A DNA stretch of 64,000 bases from positions 2,170,001 through 2,234,000 of the forward strand of contig NZ_FNSR01000002.1 of the NCBI RefSeq assembly GCF_900104845.1, read 5' to 3'. This document shows positions 37,053-45,369 of this stretch, one piece after another. Origin of the DNA: Paraburkholderia caballeronis (GTDB taxonomy: Bacteria; Pseudomonadota; Gammaproteobacteria; Burkholderiales; Burkholderiaceae). The translations under genes were made by a program, and so were the position numbers. The notes beneath the pieces are model-generated. The model searched no databases and was not told where the DNA came from. It saw nothing but the letters and a program-made list of their open reading frames with translations. The first letter of the stretch is position 1; every line of letters starts with the position of its first letter.

Positions 37053-38690
37053 TTACAGCGTGCGCAGCGTCGTGCGCTTCAGCTTGCCGGTTTCGGTGCG
37101 CGGCAGCACGTCGATGAACGCGATCTGCCGCGGGTACTTGTACGCGGCGACCGCGTTCTTCACGAACGTCTGCAGTTCCGAGACGAGCGTGTCGTCGCCG
37201 ACGTAGCCGGGCCGCAGCACGACGAACGCCTTCACCACCTGGCCGCGCACGTCGTCCGGCACGCCGGTCACGCCGCATTCGGCGACGGCCGGGTGTTGCA
37301 GCAGCACGGTCTCGACCTCCGGCCCGGCGATGTTGTAGCCGGACGATACGATCATGTCGTCCGAGCGCGCCTGATAGAACACGTAGCCGTCCGGATCGAT
37401 CGACACCGCGTCGCCGGGCAGATTCCAGCCGTCGCGCACGAACTTCAACTGCCGCTCGTCCGCGAGATAACGGCAGCCGGTCGGCCCGCGCACGGCGAGG
37501 TTGCCCACGGTGCCGGGCGGCACCGGCTGCAGCGCGTCGTCGAGCGCGGCGACCACGTAACCCGGCACCGCGCGGCCGATCGAACCCGGCCGCACGTCCT
37601 TGCCGGCCGCCGAGATGAAGATGTGGATCATCTCGGTGCCGCCGATCCCGTCGATCATCTCGATGCCGGTCGCGTCGCGCCACAGGTCGCGCGTCGCGGG
37701 CGGCAGCGCCTCGCCGGCCGACACGCTGCAACGCAGGCTCGACAGGTCCGCGTCGGCGACGAGCGCCGCCATCTGCCGGTAGAACGTGGGCGCGGTGAAC
37801 ACGATGGTCGCGCGAAAACGCGCGATCACGTCGAGCAGCAGCGCGGGCGTCAGCTTCTCGATCAGCACCGTCGACGCGCCGACGCGCAGCGGAAAACACA
37901 GCATCCCGCCGAGCCCGAACGTGAACGCGAGCGGCGGCGTGCCGCAGAACACGTCGTCGGCCGTCGGCTTCAGCACGTACTTCGGAAACAGGTCGCACAT
38001 CGCGAGCACGTCGCGATGGAAATGCATGCAGCCCTTCGGCGTGCCCGTGGTGCCGCTCGTGAACGCGATCAGGCACACGTCGTCGCTCGCCGTGTCGCAC
38101 GCGGTGAACTGCGCGGGTTTCGCGGCCGAGAGCGAATCGATGCTGTCCGGCGCGTCGTCGTGGAAGTAGCGCACCTGCTTCAGGTCCGCGCAGAAATATT
38201 CGTCGGCCGGATCGGTGCAATGCGAGAGTTCTTCCGCAAGCCGCGCGTCGCATAGCGCCGCGCCGATGCATGCCTTGTCGATGATCTGCTTGAGTTCCTT
38301 CGCGCGCAGCAGCGGCATCGTCGGCACCACGACGAGGCCGGCCTTCAGCGCGGCGAGCAGCGCGACCGCCATCCCCGGCGAATTCGGGCCGCGCAGCAGC
38401 ACGCGGTTGCCGGGTTGCAGCCCCATGTCGTCCATGAGCACGTGCGCGAAGCGGTTCACCTGCGCGAGCAGTTCAGCATACGTGATCGCGTGCGGCCGGC
38501 CGTCCACCTCGGACCAGATCGCCGGCCGCGCGCCGTGGCCCGCGTCGACCGCGCGGTCGAGCAGTTCGGCCGCGCAGTTGAACCGCGCCGGATACGCAAC
38601 GTCGGGATTGTCGAGCAGCAGCACGGGCCACTGGTCTTCGGGAGGAAGGTTGTCTCGCGCAAACGTATCGACGTGGGCTGATGGTTCCAT
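37053..38690 (-). CDS. abmG: 2-aminobenzoate--CoA ligase
   Basis: A 545-residue AMP-forming acyl-CoA ligase of the benzoate-CoA ligase subgroup, which would form 2-aminobenzoyl-CoA from anthranilate, CoA and ATP. The adenylation motif AFTSGTTGTPKGCMHFHRDVL is near 189-209, and the A5-A8 blocks (GSIGRAVPGY and YQARSDDMIVSSGYNIAGPEVETVLLQHPAV) are intact. It is the last gene of the leftward operon with the 2-aminobenzoyl-CoA monooxygenase/reductase, which fixes the substrate as anthranilate rather than benzoate. RidA lies 60 bases upstream. Confidence 0.9.
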   Translation of the reverse strand: MEPSAHVDTFARDNLPPEDQWPVLLLDNPDVAYPARFNCAAELLDRAVDAGHGARPAIWSEVDGRPHAITYAELLAQVNRFAHVLMDDMGLQPGNRVLLRGPNSPGMAVALLAALKAGLVVVPTMPLLRAKELKQIIDKACIGAALCDARLAEELSHCTDPADEYFCADLKQVRYFHDDAPDSIDSLSAAKPAQFTACDTASDDVCLIAFTSGTTGTPKGCMHFHRDVLAMCDLFPKYVLKPTADDVFCGTPPLAFTFGLGGMLCFPLRVGASTVLIEKLTPALLLDVIARFRATIVFTAPTFYRQMAALVADADLSSLRCSVSAGEALPPATRDLWRDATGIEMIDGIGGTEMIHIFISAAGKDVRPGSIGRAVPGYVVAALDDALQPVPPGTVGNLAVRGPTGCRYLADERQLKFVRDGWNLPGDAVSIDPDGYVFYQARSDDMIVSSGYNIAGPEVETVLLQHPAVAECGVTGVPDDVRGQVVKAFVVLRPGYVGDDTLVSELQTFVKNAVAAYKYPRQIAFIDVLPRTETGKLKRTTLRTL

Positions 38691-38750: not shown

Positions 38751-39149
38751 CTAACGGTCGGGAATGACGGCGGTCGCTTCGATTTCGACCTTCGCTTCGT
38801 CCTCGATCAGCGCGACCACCTGCACCGCGCTCATCGCGATGTCGTAGTCGCCGATCAGTTCGCGGAACACGGCGCCGATCGCCTTCAGCGACGCGAGGTA
38901 TGCGCGCTTGTCGGTCACGTACCACGTCATTCGCACCAGATGCTCGGGACGGCCGCCGGCCGCTTCGAGCACCGCGACGACGTTGCGCAGCGCCTGCGCC
39001 GCCTGGTCCGCGAAATCGCCGCTGCGAAAGCGCGCCTGTTCGTCCCAGCCGATCTGGCCGGCGATGAACACCTGGGTGCCGGTCGCCGCGACGCCGTTCG
39101 CGTAGCCGCGCGGCTTGATCCAGCCGGCGGGGAGTAGGGCTTTTTTCAT
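38751..39149 (-). CDS. RidA-family enamine/imine deaminase of the abm operon
   Basis: A 132-residue RidA/YjgF protein. The N-terminal GYANGVAATGTQVFIAGQIGWDEQARFRSGDFADQAAQALRNVVAVLEAAGGRPEHLVRMTWYVTDKRAYLASLKAIG carries the family fold, and the arginine near 100 is in place. In this operon it would hydrolyse the enamine/imine left after reduction and hydroxylation of 2-aminobenzoyl-CoA, releasing ammonium. That function is inferred from position and from the general activity of RidA. It is preceded by an acyl-CoA dehydrogenase gene 43 bases upstream. Confidence 0.88.
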   Translation of the reverse strand: MKKALLPAGWIKPRGYANGVAATGTQVFIAGQIGWDEQARFRSGDFADQAAQALRNVVAVLEAAGGRPEHLVRMTWYVTDKRAYLASLKAIGAVFRELIGDYDIAMSAVQVVALIEDEAKVEIEATAVIPDR

Positions 39150-39192: not shown

Positions 39193-40395
39193 TCATGCGG
39201 ACGCCGCGTGGGTCTTCAGAACATCGCGGCCGACGATCAACTGCTGCACCTCGGTCGCGCCTTCGTAGATGCGCAGCGCGCGGATCTCGCGATACAGCGT
39301 CTCGACCGCGGTGCCGCTCTGCACGCCCATGCCGCCCCATAGCTGCACGGCGGCGTCGATCACCTGCTGCGCGCCTTCGCTCGCGTGCCACTTCGCCATC
39401 GCGGCCTCGCGCGTCACGCTTTCGCCGCGATCGCGCAGCCACGCGGCGCGATAGACGAGCAGCGCGCTGCTGTCGATGGTCAGCGCCATCTGCGCGAGCT
39501 TCGCCTGGGTCAACTGGAAGTCGCCGAGCGTCTGGCCGAACATCGTGCGCGATGCGGCGCGCGCGAGCCCTTCGGCCATCGCGCGGCGCGCGAAGCCGAG
39601 CGACGCGGCCGCGACCGACGTGCGGAAGATGTCGAGTGTGCGCATCGCGATCTTGAAACCTTCTCCCGGCGCGCCGAGCCGCTGCGAAGCCGGCACGCGC
39701 GCGCCGGCAAAGCGCAGTCGCGCGAGCGGATGCGGCGCGATCACGTCGATGCGCTCCGCGATTTCGAGCCCCGGCGTGTCGGCATCGACGACGAACGCGG
39801 TGATGCCGCGCGCGCCCGGCGCCTCGCCGGTCCGAGCGAACACCACGTAGAAGTCCGCGATGCCGCCGTTCGAGATCCACGTCTTTTCGCCGTCGAGCAC
39901 GTAGTCGTCGCCGTCCACGCGCGCGGACAGCGCCATCGCGGCGACGTCGGAGCCCGCGTTCGGCTCGGACAGCGCGAACGCGGCGAGCGCGGTGCCGTTC
40001 GCGACGCGCGGCAGATAACGGGCTTTCTGCGCGTCGGTGCCGGCGAGCGAGATCGCGCCGGAGCCGAGTCCCTGCATCGCGAGCGCGAAGTCCGCGAGGC
40101 CCGAATGTTTCGCGAGCGTTTCGCGCAGCACGCAGACCGCGCGCGTGTCGATGGTGTCGCCATGGCCGCCGTATGCGATGCCGCCGACGCCGTAGCGCAG
40201 CCAGCCGGCGTCGCCGAGCGCGCGCACGAGGCCGCGGCACGCGTCGTCCACTTCGTCGCGGGTCGCGGGATGCGCGTCATGCGCGAGATGTTCGCGCGCC
40301 CATGCCTCGATGCCGGCGGCCAGTGCGCGATGGCGGTCCTCGAAGAACGGCCACGCGAGCGCGTCGTGCGGGTCGAGCGGAAAATCGGCGCTCAC
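39193..40395 (-). CDS. Acyl-CoA dehydrogenase of the abm operon
   Basis: A 400-residue FAD-dependent acyl-CoA dehydrogenase. Features are [48 protein letters not shown] near residues 141-188, the substrate/FAD region [16 protein letters not shown] and the C-terminal [42 protein letters not shown] with the catalytic Glu in YEGATEVQ. In this operon it would act on the CoA thioester made by the monooxygenase/reductase. The start is GTG. The gap to the enoyl-CoA hydratase stop is one base. Confidence 0.92.
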
Positions 40396-40396
40396 G

Positions 40397-41251
<855 letters not shown>

Positions 41252-41266
41252 CGTGTGTCTCCTGTG

Positions 41267-41611
41267 TCGATCGGAGTTAGCGCTTTAGCGCTTACTTCGA
41301 TCCCATGCAAGGCGGTCGATCGGAGTTAGCGCTTTAGCGCTTACTCCGATCCCATGCAAGGCGGTCGATCGGAGTTAGCGCTTTAGCGCTTACTCCGATC
41401 CCATGCAAGGCGGTCGATCGGAGTTAGCGCTTTAGCGCTTACTTCGATCCCATGCAAAGCTGTCGATCCGGAGTTAGCGCTTTAGCGCCTACTCCGATCC
41501 CATGCAAAGCTGTCGATCCGGAGTTAGCGCTAAAGCGCCTACCCCGATCCCATGCAAGGCGATCAATCGGCGCTCGCACTTCAGCGTCCGCTCCGATCCC
41601 CTGCAAGCTGG
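41267..41611 (-). repeat. Seven-unit tandem array of a 49-50 bp hairpin repeat
   Basis: Units begin at 41267, 41316, 41365, 41414, 41463, 41513 and 41563; the first six are near-identical and the seventh is degenerate. Each unit carries a 34-base imperfect palindrome, GATCGGAGTTAGCGCT-TT-AGCGCTTACTCCGATC in unit two (41318-41351), with two 16-base arms and one mismatch, followed by CCATGCAAGGCGG. The same hairpin occurs once at 93-126. Read on the minus strand, the array lies in the 5' leader of the enoyl-CoA hydratase. Point changes between units cluster in the spacer and outer arm. I do not know a published name. Confidence 0.92.
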
Positions 41612-41663
41612 TTTGTTGTGAGGTCCGGTCATGCCGTTGTATGGCCCTTGATTCGTCCCGTGT

Positions 41664-42221
41664 TCAGCGTTGCACGCTGCCGATCAGATGCTGCTTCAGC
41701 TTGCCGAGCCGTTCATGCATCTTCGATTTATCGTCGAGCGACAGCCCGCCGAACAACTCGACGACCCATTGCTCGTGCACCGCCGCCATGCTGTCGAACT
41801 GCGCGCGTCCCGCCGGCGTGAGGCGCAGCGCGATCGAGCGGCGGTCGTCCGGATCGGCGTCGCGCACGACGAGGCCTTCTTTTTCCAGTTGATCCGCGAT
41901 GCCGGTCACGTTGCCGCCGGTCACCATCAGCCGGCGCGACAGTTCGGTCATCCGCAGCCCTTCCGGATGACGCTCCAGTTGCGCCATCAGGTCGAAGCGC
42001 GGCAGCGTCGTGTCGAACTCGGTGCGCAGCCGCTTGCGCAATTCGGCCTGCACGAGGTTCGTCGTCGTCAGCAGGCGCAGCCACAGGCGCAGGCCCATGT
42101 GGCTGTCCGCGCCGGTGCTCATCTCCAGATCGACGACGTTGTCGGCCGGTTTTTCAACGCCCTTGCGCGGCGTTTTCGTCGCGGCCGCGGACTTGCGCGC
42201 GGGAGCGGGGCGGGTCGTCAT
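41664..42221 (-). CDS. MarR-family transcriptional regulator of the abm operon
   Basis: A 185-residue MarR protein. The winged helix is recognisable near 75-130 ([70 protein letters not shown]). Its N-terminal 40 residues are a basic, low-complexity tail. The start overlaps the SDR stop by four bases (ATGA). It likely represses the operon and responds to 2-aminobenzoyl-CoA or a similar thioester (inference). Its operator is probably in the AT-rich promoter at 45405-45432. Confidence 0.9.
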
Positions 42222-43003
42222 GTGATCTCTCCACCGGAAACGGAAATGGACTGCCCGGTGATCGCGGACGATCCGGGCGCGCATAACCACAGCACCGCGT
42301 TCGCGACTTCTTCCGGCGTCACGAAGCGCTGCTGCGGGTTGTGGCGCAGCAGCTGGCTGCGGGCTTCGGCCTCGCTGCGCGAGGTCTTTTGCATGATCTG
42401 GTCGAGCGACGCGCGCAGCAGTTCGGTTTCGGTGTAACCGGGGCAGACCGCATTGACGGTCACGCCCTGCGTCGCGACTTCGAGCGCGAGCGCGCGCATG
42501 AGGCCGATCACGCCGTGCTTCGACGCGCAATACGCGGCGACGTACGGATAACCGGTCTGCCCAGCCGTGCTCGCGACGTTCACGATGCGGCCGCTCTTGC
42601 GTTCGAGCATCGCGGGCAATACCGCGCGCGTGCACAGGAACACGCCGGTCAGGTTCACGTCGAGCATCCGCCGCCATAGCGCGGCGTCGGTGCGCGTGAA
42701 CGGCGCGGCCTGCGCCTGGCCCGCGTTGTTCACGAGGATGTCGATCGGGCCGAGGCCGTCCGCCGCCTGCGCAAACGCGGTCTCGACCGCCGTTTCGTCG
42801 GTCACGTCCACGCTTGCGCACGCGATGCGGTCGCCGCCGCCGAGCGCCGCGCGTTGCGCATCGAGGCGCACGGCGTCGCGGCCCATCAGCGTGACGCGCG
42901 CGCCGGCTTGCAGCAGCGCGGCCGCCGTCGCCGCGCCGATCCCGCTGCCGCCGCCGGTGACGACCGCGTGGCGGCCGCCGAGGGTTTCTGCGTGGTCGGT
43001 CAT
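42218..43003 (-). CDS. SDR, probable 3-hydroxyacyl-CoA dehydrogenase of the abm operon
   Basis: A 261-residue SDR with TGGGSGIG near residues 16-23, NNAG at 92-95 and YCASK near 158-162. It would oxidise the hydroxy CoA ester produced by the hydratase or reduce a keto intermediate. Its start overlaps the stop of the monooxygenase/reductase gene by one base (TGATG) and its stop overlaps the MarR start by four bases (ATGA), so this is a tightly coupled operon. The substrate is inferred from the neighbours. Confidence 0.9.
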
Positions 43004-45369
43004 CACACGGTTCCTTCCGCGCGCTGCGCGCGTTCGAGCGGCGACAGCCCGGCTGCCGCCGAGGCCTGTGCGCGTTCGCGCTCGATGTTGCGTTCGAGCT
43101 GCGTCTTGGCCGAGCGATATTGCGGCGGCCACGCGACGTCGAGATAACCGATGCGCGCCGCTTCGTTCAGCGTCCACGACGGGTTCGCGAGATGAGGGCG
43201 CGCGATCGCGCACAGATCGGCGCGGCCGGCCGCGATGATGCTGTTCACGTGATCGGCCTCCGAGATCGCGCCGACCGCGATCGTCGGAATGTGCACTTCG
43301 TTGCGGATGCGATCCGCGAACGGCGTCTGGAACATGCGGCCGTACACGGGTTTTTCGTCCTTGCTGACCTGGCCCGACGACACGTCGATCAGGTCCGCGC
43401 CCGCCGCCTTGAACGCGCGCGCGATCTCGACCGCGTCGTCCGGCGTGTTGCCGCCTTCGACCCAGTCGTGCGCGGAGATCCGCACCGAGATCGGGCGGTC
43501 CTGCGGCCACACCGCGCGAATCGCCGCGAACACCTGCAACGGATAACGCAGCCGGTTTTCGAACGAGCCGCCGTACTGGTCGGTGCGCTGGTTCGTCAGC
43601 GGCGACAGGAAACTCGACAGCAGATAACCGTGCGCGCAGTGCAGTTCGAGCCAGTCGAAACCCGCCTCGGCGGCCATCTGCGTCGAGCGGACGAACTGTG
43701 CTTCGATCTCGCGCAGTTCCGCTTCGGTCGCTTCGTGCGACCACTGGCTGACGCCGCGCAGATACTGCTGCGGCGACGCGGACACGAGCGGCCAGTTGCC
43801 GTCGTCGAGCGGCTGGTCGATGCCTTCCCACGCGACGCGCGTCGAGCCCTTCGCGCCAGAATGGCCGATCTGGAGGCCGATCTTCGCATCGGACTGCGCG
43901 TGCACGAAATCGACGATGCGCCGCCACGCGTCCTGCTGTTCGCGGGTGTACAGGCCGGGGCAGGCGGGCGTGATCCGCGCGTGCGGCGACACGCAGGTCA
44001 TCTCGGTCATCACGAGCGCCGCGCCGCCCATCGCGCGCGCGCCGAGATGCATCAGGTGATAGTCGCCCGGCACGCCGTCGAACGCCGAATACTGCGCCAT
44101 CGGCGACACGACGACGCGATTCTTCAGCGTGATGCCGCGCAGCGTGAACGGCGTGAACATCGGCGGCACCGGGCGTGCGCTTTCGCTCGCGCCGGTCTTC
44201 GCCGCAAGCCACGCTTCGTAGCCGGACAGATAAGCCGCGTCGCGTTCGCGCAGGTTTTCATGCGAGATCCGCTGCGAGCGCGTGAGCAGCGAATACGCGA
44301 ACTGCTCGGGTTCGAACGAGGCATAACGATCGACGTGCTCGAACCACTCCGTCGAATTGCGCGCCGCGTTCTGGATCCGCAGCACGTCGATGCTGCGCAC
44401 GCTCGTGTAGTGTTCGAGCGCCGCGCGCAGGTCGTCCGGATGCGCGTCCAGACTGTTCGCGAGTTCGATCGCGTCTTCGAGCGCGAGCTTCGTGCCGGAG
44501 CCGATCGAGAAGTGCGCGGTATGGGCGGCGTCGCCCATCAGCACGACCGGCGTGCTGCCGCCGTCCGCGCGCGGTTTCCAGTGCACCCATTCGCGGTTGA
44601 CGACGCGCGGAAAGCGGATCCACTGCGACGAGCCGCGCAGATGCCCGGCGTTCGACATCAGCGCATGGCCGTCCAGATACTTCGCGAACAGCCGCTCGCA
44701 GAATGCGATGCTGTCCTCCTTGCTCATCGTGTCGAGACCGGCCGCGCGCCACACGTGCTCCGGCGTCTCGACGATGAACGTCGACGTGTGCTCGTCGAAG
44801 CGGTATGCGTGCGCCTGGAACCAGCCCCATTCGGTCTCTTCGAATGCGAACGTGAACGCGTCGAACAGCCGGTGCGTGCCGAGCCAGACGAAGCGGCAGT
44901 CGCGCTGGTCGATGTCCGGCTGATAGGTGGCCGCGTATTTCTGGCGGATCGCGCTGTTCAGGCCGTCGCTCGCGATGATCAGGTCGGCGTCGCGCACGTC
45001 GTCGTCGCTGGCCTGCGATTCGAACACGAGTTTCACGCCGAGTTCTTCGCAGCGCGCCTGCAGGATGTTCAGCAGCCGCTTGCGGCCGATGCCGCAGAAG
45101 CCGTGGCCCGACGACCGCACCGTGCGGCCGCGAAAATGGATTTCGATATCGTCCCAGTGATTGAACGCATCGAGGATCTGCGCGGCGCTTTTCGGGTCCG
45201 CCGCGCGCAGGTTGCCGAGCGTCTGGTCCGAAAACACGACGCCCCAGCCGAACGTGTCGTACGGCCGGTTCCGCTCGATCACCGTGACCTCGTGGTCCGG
45301 ATGACGGCGTTTCATCAACAGGCCGAAATACAGCCCGGCCGGTCCCCCTCCGATGCAGACGATGCGCAT
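43003..45369 (-). CDS. abmA: 2-aminobenzoyl-CoA monooxygenase/reductase, two-domain flavoprotein
   Basis: A 788-residue fusion. The N-terminal half is a group A flavoprotein hydroxylase: [10 protein letters not shown] (7-16), SDGLNSAIR (134-142) and [27 protein letters not shown] (278-304). The C-terminal half from about 403 is an Old Yellow Enzyme domain: [16 protein letters not shown] near 417-432 and [39 protein letters not shown]. Azoarcus evansii AbmA (ACMR) has this arrangement and hydroxylates then reduces 2-aminobenzoyl-CoA. The salicyloyl-CoA 5-hydroxylase group is the closest alternative; the ligase and RidA favour anthranilate. It is the first gene of the operon. Confidence 0.92.

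Follow-up and report, generated by a model that had tools for sequence, protein, structure and literature searches.

The tandem array in the leader of the enoyl-CoA hydratase gene of the Paraburkholderia caballeronis abm operon is a member of a dispersed, REP-like repeat family, and the abm operon is not the specific site of this family. On balance, and with moderate confidence, we take the array to be the local accumulation of a mobile palindrome, REP-like and non-autonomous, which integrates immediately before Shine-Dalgarno sequences (SDs) of the AGGAGAC type and grows in tandem.

The analysed stretch of 64,000 nt (the window) contains one outstanding tandem repeat: Tandem Repeats Finder reports positions 41266–41607 with a period of 49, 6.9 copies, 91% matches and a score of 505, against 79 for the next-best array of the window. 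The array (41266–41610) comprises seven head-to-tail units of 49–50 nt on the minus strand, each made up of a 15-nt tail and a 34-nt palindrome that is interrupted by a single internal mismatch. The SD-proximal unit 1 (41266–41314), which in gene sense runs tail, hairpin, GAC, matches our covariance model of the repeat, R1, with 72.6 bits; units 2 (41315–41363) and 3 (41364–41412), identical in letters, match with 78 bits each, unit 4 (41413–41461) with 74.8 bits and the two 50-nt units, 5 (41462–41511) and 6 (41512–41561), with 69 and 55.3 bits. The distal unit 7 (41562–41610) is degenerate, with 31 of 42 core positions kept, and is absent from the listed R1 matches. The six near-identical units and degenerate seventh of the first-pass annotation are thus borne out, as is its division of the unit into a near-perfect 34-bp palindrome and a 15-bp tail. 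Both strands fold far below 100 shuffled sequences (z −10.3 and −9.3). A CRISPR array was rejected because variable spacers are absent from this array, and coding on the other strand because the 49-nt unit length is not a multiple of 3.

The whole apparent operon around the array runs on the minus strand. Its first gene (43003–45369) encodes a fusion of FAD_binding_3 and Oxidored_FMN domains, presumably 2-aminobenzoyl-CoA monooxygenase/reductase, and is followed by a short-chain dehydrogenase (42218–43006) and a MarR-family regulator (41664–42221, PF01047) upstream of the array. The first gene past the array is the enoyl-CoA hydratase/isomerase (40397–41251, PF00378), which has a TTG start, and then come an acyl-CoA dehydrogenase (39193–40395), a RidA-like protein (Ribonuc_L-PSP, 38751–39149) and an AMP-binding CoA ligase (37053–38690), all assigned from gene calls and domains. 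The order MarR–array–hydratase is therefore as first annotated. At the hydratase, the last letters of the array are GAC; ACAGGAGACACACG and the TTG start come next, and an SD-type AGGAGAC can be read directly after the array at 41257–41263 (minus strand). The distance from the array edge (41266) to the first base of the TTG (41251) is 14 nt rather than the 16 bases given earlier. The window holds a second copy, a single unit on the plus strand (81–129, locus L042; R1 match 2170081–2170129), located 11 nt before the predicted start of a gene whose protein is similar to the SDR type.

First annotated as a feature of the abm operon, the array proved to be one of 44 scored arrays distributed genome-wide. 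A DNA search of the three-replicon genome gave 75 matches to the unit, and R1 at E 1e-3 gave at least 134 in these 44 arrays, with 150 of 4,796 first-look candidates scored and at least one of the 134 being the reverse reading of a palindrome; sequence stretches were taken around 39 places and six more, and their genes were called by a custom hexamer-based script. With stricter filters, which lose weak matches, R1 matches were detected in all 35 genomes of the genus (P. caballeronis included), in 46 of 120 genomes of the family, representing 8 of 25 genera, and in 0 of 24 genomes of other families. Matches are also carried by 17 plasmid or secondary-replicon records (Caballeronia 6, Paraburkholderia 6, Burkholderia 5), while the phage collection yielded none. 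Searches of open-licence PMC papers turned up no earlier description of the family.

Most copies have the same orientation and the same distance to a gene start. In P. caballeronis, 37 of the 44 arrays are followed in the sense direction by a coding start no more than 22 nt (10–19 nt) away, with their last hairpin adjoining the SD, and for 42 the distance is at most 60 nt; on the other flank, 3 of 44 have a gene start within 60 nt. As a control, intergenic points were drawn at random, of which 387 of 4,300 (9%) had a start no farther than 22 nt away. An SD-like motif lies at most 12 nt from the array end in 40 of the 44 cases. The placement of the units in the hydratase leader, proposed earlier from position, is thereby extended to a genome-wide rule (37/44 versus 9%), and copies mapped against start codons are random neither in orientation nor in position. 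Seven arrays of this genome were scored as misses. By eye, three of them (L019, the first array of L021, and L038) run into the SD and ATG of a short frame, one (L011) conforms and was overlooked by the script, one (L035) carries part of another hairpin ahead of the SD, and two (L026 and L030) break the rule. At L019, L021, L038 and L320 alike, the elements precede the SD and ATG of a short leader frame and not those of the called gene; the frame of L019 apparently has 14 codons and overlaps the next start (by eye).

Over all scored sets, the distance from the array end to the following coding start is no more than 22 nt for 90 of 126 arrays and no more than 60 nt for 112, with 9 of 126 having a start on the opposite side, in a collection that excludes the loci of genome G092 (20 regions) and the Trinickia-like or odd loci L156–L158, L161 and L162. 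Outside this count stand 22 composite copies, three that miss the rule (the first array of L138, L158 and L161) and L146–L148, at which an SD is present after the array. Scoring passed over arrays closer than 150 nt to the end of a stretch, no array of L231 or L232 exceeded the script threshold, and the loci of G029, G009, G078, G025 and the other genera are the best-scoring matches. In the relative genome G032, 23 of 41 arrays fit the rule, several of the misses having a partial unit between array and SD; among the named records, five of the seven arrays scored (eight loci) fit it (P. caribensis, B. multivorans, B. cenocepacia, B. arboris and B. stagnalis). At L172, L195, L197, L203, L207 and L057, the SD is separated from the last full unit by a 3′ half-unit of the AGCTAAAGCGCTAACTCCGGTCGAC type, and these half-units look as if deleted between tail and loop.

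The rule has exceptions. In the Trinickia-like genomes G092, G071 and G108, the 22 copies (L129–L145, L156, L157 and L162) are near-identical single units embedded in a longer composite repeat with GC-rich inverted repeats; they lack a following SD, and their orientation to the next gene is opposite to the main rule. Read in reverse, this composite contains a short open frame (by eye), which in several copies reaches the start of the next gene. An SD is likewise missing after the first array of L138, L158, L161, L165, L166 and L168. On plasmid pSYMBR3459 of Paraburkholderia phenoliruptrix, it is the other flank of the unit that carries the annotated gene start. All of these, the Trinickia-type copies, the other non-SD copies and pSYMBR3459, count against the explanation by insertion at SDs. 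At L215, L161 and L138, an A-rich sequence and a terminator-like inverted repeat follow the copy in place of an SD, possibly representing a second class of insertion site.

The sequence that follows the elements suggests why they would lie in leaders. AGGAGAC follows 17 of 37 element sites and is found at 10 of 210 other genes; for AGGAG, the counts are 30 of 37 and 45 of 210. Outside the elements, the stretches contain 24 AGGAGAC sites, of which 17 are SDs, 2 are intergenic and non-SD, and 5 are in coding sequence, so that a preference for AGGAGAC would be enough to bring a mobile element into leaders, with no need for selection on regulation. The hairpin-to-SD distance varies by a few nucleotides, which leaves the exact target undefined and is a point against the SD-target explanation.

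Between species, orthologous sites are found both occupied and empty. The element is present in the abm hydratase leader of 5 of 44 Burkholderiaceae orthologues (L049, L051, L057, L064 and L074) and in 0 of the 36 other relatives fetched. The empty site of L052 reads CACCGTAGGAGACACTCATG and the occupied L057 has hairpin-GACACAGGAGACACTCATG, thus the SD exists without the element. Of 39 empty abm sites, 15 have AGGAGAC close to the start; its absence from the other 24 speaks against the SD-target explanation. Upstream of glgC, the element was scored in 11 of 30 genomes (P. caballeronis included; scores are as low as 16 and 19 for the occupied rows L272 and L275), L265 and L269 seem to contain relics, and AGGAGAC is present at 10 of 13 clearly empty sites; start calls are doubtful in 4 of these 30 genomes (L252, L255, L262 and L266). 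A choline-dehydrogenase-like gene is occupied in 3 of 30. Comparison of the downstream proteins gave three orthologue-like pairs between P. caballeronis (43 proteins) and G032 (37), with 66–88% identity, at least three between G032 and G140 (14 among the matches listed), with 75–89% identity, and single pairs (glgC and the abm hydratase included) between other sets. Chance alone would give about 0.25 and 0.1 pairs for the two comparisons, by our own estimate with 6,500 genes; sites hence turn over, yet are shared more than expected by chance. The sharing above chance, including glgC at 11 of 30, could mean retention for function. Two strain pairs with a scored array revealed neither unit-number polymorphism nor insertion events, the unit numbers being equal and one pair identical over 6,097 bases.

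The arrays are polar. In the 46 arrays with at least three units, the mean score falls from 75.0 for the SD-proximal unit to 68.1 for the middle and 52.8 for the distal ones, and the SD-proximal unit is nearer to the consensus than the distal one in 38 of the 46, a contrast that may be exaggerated by a scoring matrix built from P. caballeronis units. At the distal end of a number of arrays, CAACCATC stands before TTGCATGGG, which looks like the original end of the element. The largest array has at least twelve units, in G140, by script count among the matches listed.

The location in leaders could also reflect a cis-acting RNA regulator whose hairpins bind a protein or a small RNA or stabilize the message, and which some 45 genes keep by need; we regard this as unlikely, even though the arrays adjoin SD and start codon, orthologous leaders are shared above chance and the unit has a well-maintained secondary structure. 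The majority unit in gene sense, AGCTTTGCATGGGATCGGAGTAAGCGCTAAAGCGCTAACTCCGATCGAC (73 units), is composed of the tail, a 9-bp stem, an A·A mismatch, a 5-bp stem and a 4-nt loop with the consensus U[A/G]AA. Double-sided changes affect 9 of the 14 stem pairs, in 96 cells compared with a shuffle mean of 30, 95% of cells being paired, and, with identical units of a set counted once, 208 of 238 retain the internal A·A mismatch. Were the mRNA hairpin selected, G-U should exceed A-C in gene sense, but wobble on the mRNA strand is not favored: there are 95 G-U and 139 A-C cells. Per locus, A-C is in excess in 45 of 129 and G-U in 19 of 129, with a bootstrap G-U fraction of 0.33–0.48, in a tally that counts two stretches twice owing to their overlap with the window. 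If real, this wobble bias would point to the other strand, as expected for recognition of its single-stranded DNA hairpin; mutation bias would be the alternative. The predicted openness of the SD also argues against regulation, since it is the same in 35 genes with the element (0.37), after shuffling of the element (0.40) and in 89 genes without it (0.34; p 0.43 and 0.47). Moreover, the 20 downstream proteins checked with NCBIfam share no common pathway, most sites differ between species, and 0 of 14 Rfam matches in the 901 bases around the array reach the gathering score, which rules out a known RNA family. The array may regulate translation, processing or stability at the abm hydratase, as first suggested; the insertion-target explanation accounts for the leader location at least as well. 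The unit consensus includes a mini reading frame, ATG-GGN-NNN-NNN-TAR, rejected because no SD precedes it and taken as a by-product of the tail and mismatch.

Less probable still is that the repeats are neutral and that their leader position is what remains after selection against insertions elsewhere. Plain AGGAG outside the elements is mostly found within coding sequence (163 sites, compared with 60 SDs and 24 intergenic non-SD sites), where insertions would be lost, and some copies do occupy non-SD sites. The same counts indicate that AGGAG alone would not suffice as a target; yet, with 24 intergenic non-SD sites on offer, only 2 of the 44 arrays (L026 and L030) are clearly without an adjacent SD, and the orientation is fixed in 37 of 44. 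Tandem double-stranded operators for a transcription factor would fit palindromic, tandem and intergenic units, but are very improbable given that arm sequences change while pairing persists, that copies lie against SDs and frequently follow a gene on the same strand, and that a consensus scan of 41100–41800 found no sigma-70-like promoter. An array of intrinsic terminators or attenuators controlling read-through from marR to the hydratase, suggested by stable hairpins within an apparent operon, has equally little to recommend it, as the hairpin is followed by GACA and the SD without a U-tract and a consensus scan of both strands of 41100–41800 gave zero terminator-like sites.

Among described elements, the unit is closest in form to the CGTC-tagged REPs, which are described as dispersed elements with an unpaired CGTC tag (often TGTC, or CCTC), a palindromic stem of 8–9 bp, a loop of 4–5 nt and an unpaired CCA tail, without a known dedicated transposase; their dimers are mainly head-to-head, with a negligible share of head-to-tail ones (Di Nocera et al. 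2013, PMC3733652). Likewise, among the matches listed, a TGTC tag marks the SD-side ends in 42 of 44 P. caballeronis, 38 of 42 G032 and 15 of 17 G140 cases, and a CCA tail is present in the distal units in 35 of 44, 37 of 42 and 15 of 17, respectively; the consensus loop of 4 nt also agrees. In contrast, our repeat has a stem of 9 bp plus a conserved A·A mismatch plus 5 bp, its arrays run head to tail with all listed units of each P. caballeronis locus on one strand, and most copies stand at a fixed distance before an SD. The only neighboring arrays less than 500 nt apart have the same orientation. In that paper, the reported location of known REPs is mainly downstream of coding regions, and the uni-REPs diagrammed for two species are close to the 3′ end of the preceding gene, at varying distances from the following one; the word Burkholderia is absent from its main text (PMC3733652). 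The family thus resembles a REP as a dispersed palindrome apparently without its own enzyme, and we do not assign it to the CGTC REPs. GTAG REPs and REPINs, which are reportedly mobilized by RAYT transposases (PMC3116915; PMC3733652), are likewise small, scattered palindromes and are regarded as non-autonomous mobile elements; they differ from our repeat, which has mostly TGTC or GGTC as its tag, lacks GTAG and has no repeat-flanked RAYT gene that could be found in P. caballeronis. The sub-threshold Rfam match of the array to naRNA4 (RF02564; 20.5 bits versus a gathering score of 59.5) does not make it a member of that family, which consists of tandem hairpins. Stabilizing 5′ hairpins upstream of the ribosome-binding site are known from ompA-type leaders and synthetic insulators, where they are single and gene-specific or engineered. 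They share with the present arrays a hairpin directly upstream of the SD, but ours form a dispersed, multiplying family.

The search for a mobilizing enzyme covered Y1 transposases. P. caballeronis has a single Y1-transposase match (C1:642409–642699), with no unit within about 1.5 kb (3,291 bases of L048), and Y1 matches, mostly single, occur in 104 of 120 family genomes with or without the repeat. Mobilization by a RAYT or Y1 enzyme is consequently unsupported, and the failure of this search to identify a mobilizing enzyme counts against the mobile-element explanation. The L048 frame 1459–2262 encodes a lone Y1-transposase-like protein in which the usual HUH motif seems lost, and for which Pfam at E 1e-5 returned nothing; it may be domesticated.

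The insertion of a mobile palindrome, which we prefer, would proceed as follows. One unit would insert in fixed orientation directly upstream of an AGGAGAC-type SD, leaving SD and start codon intact, a preference for this target being the presumed cause of the location. Movement would involve processing of a single-stranded DNA hairpin by some enzyme, by analogy with what has been proposed for other REPs. The unit would then multiply head to tail, mostly at the SD side, where the units nearest to the consensus stand, probably by replication slippage or by repeated insertion at one spot. If the leader is transcribed, the mRNA would carry one to seven stable hairpins ending a few nucleotides before the SD, and expression of the gene may be affected.

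A REP-like family that lies mostly before ribosome-binding sites, in one orientation, would offer a natural system to study how mobile DNA finds translation-initiation regions, and would allow one to ask whether host genes are tuned by a mobile hairpin. For annotation and strain typing in Burkholderia relatives, such arrays may pass as simple tandem repeats. More speculatively, and at odds that we consider low, an AGGAGAC-homing mobile hairpin could act as a plug-in leader module, its insertion and unit number tuning mRNA stability or translation; if so, a selfish palindrome would be rewiring translation across Paraburkholderia, Burkholderia and Caballeronia.
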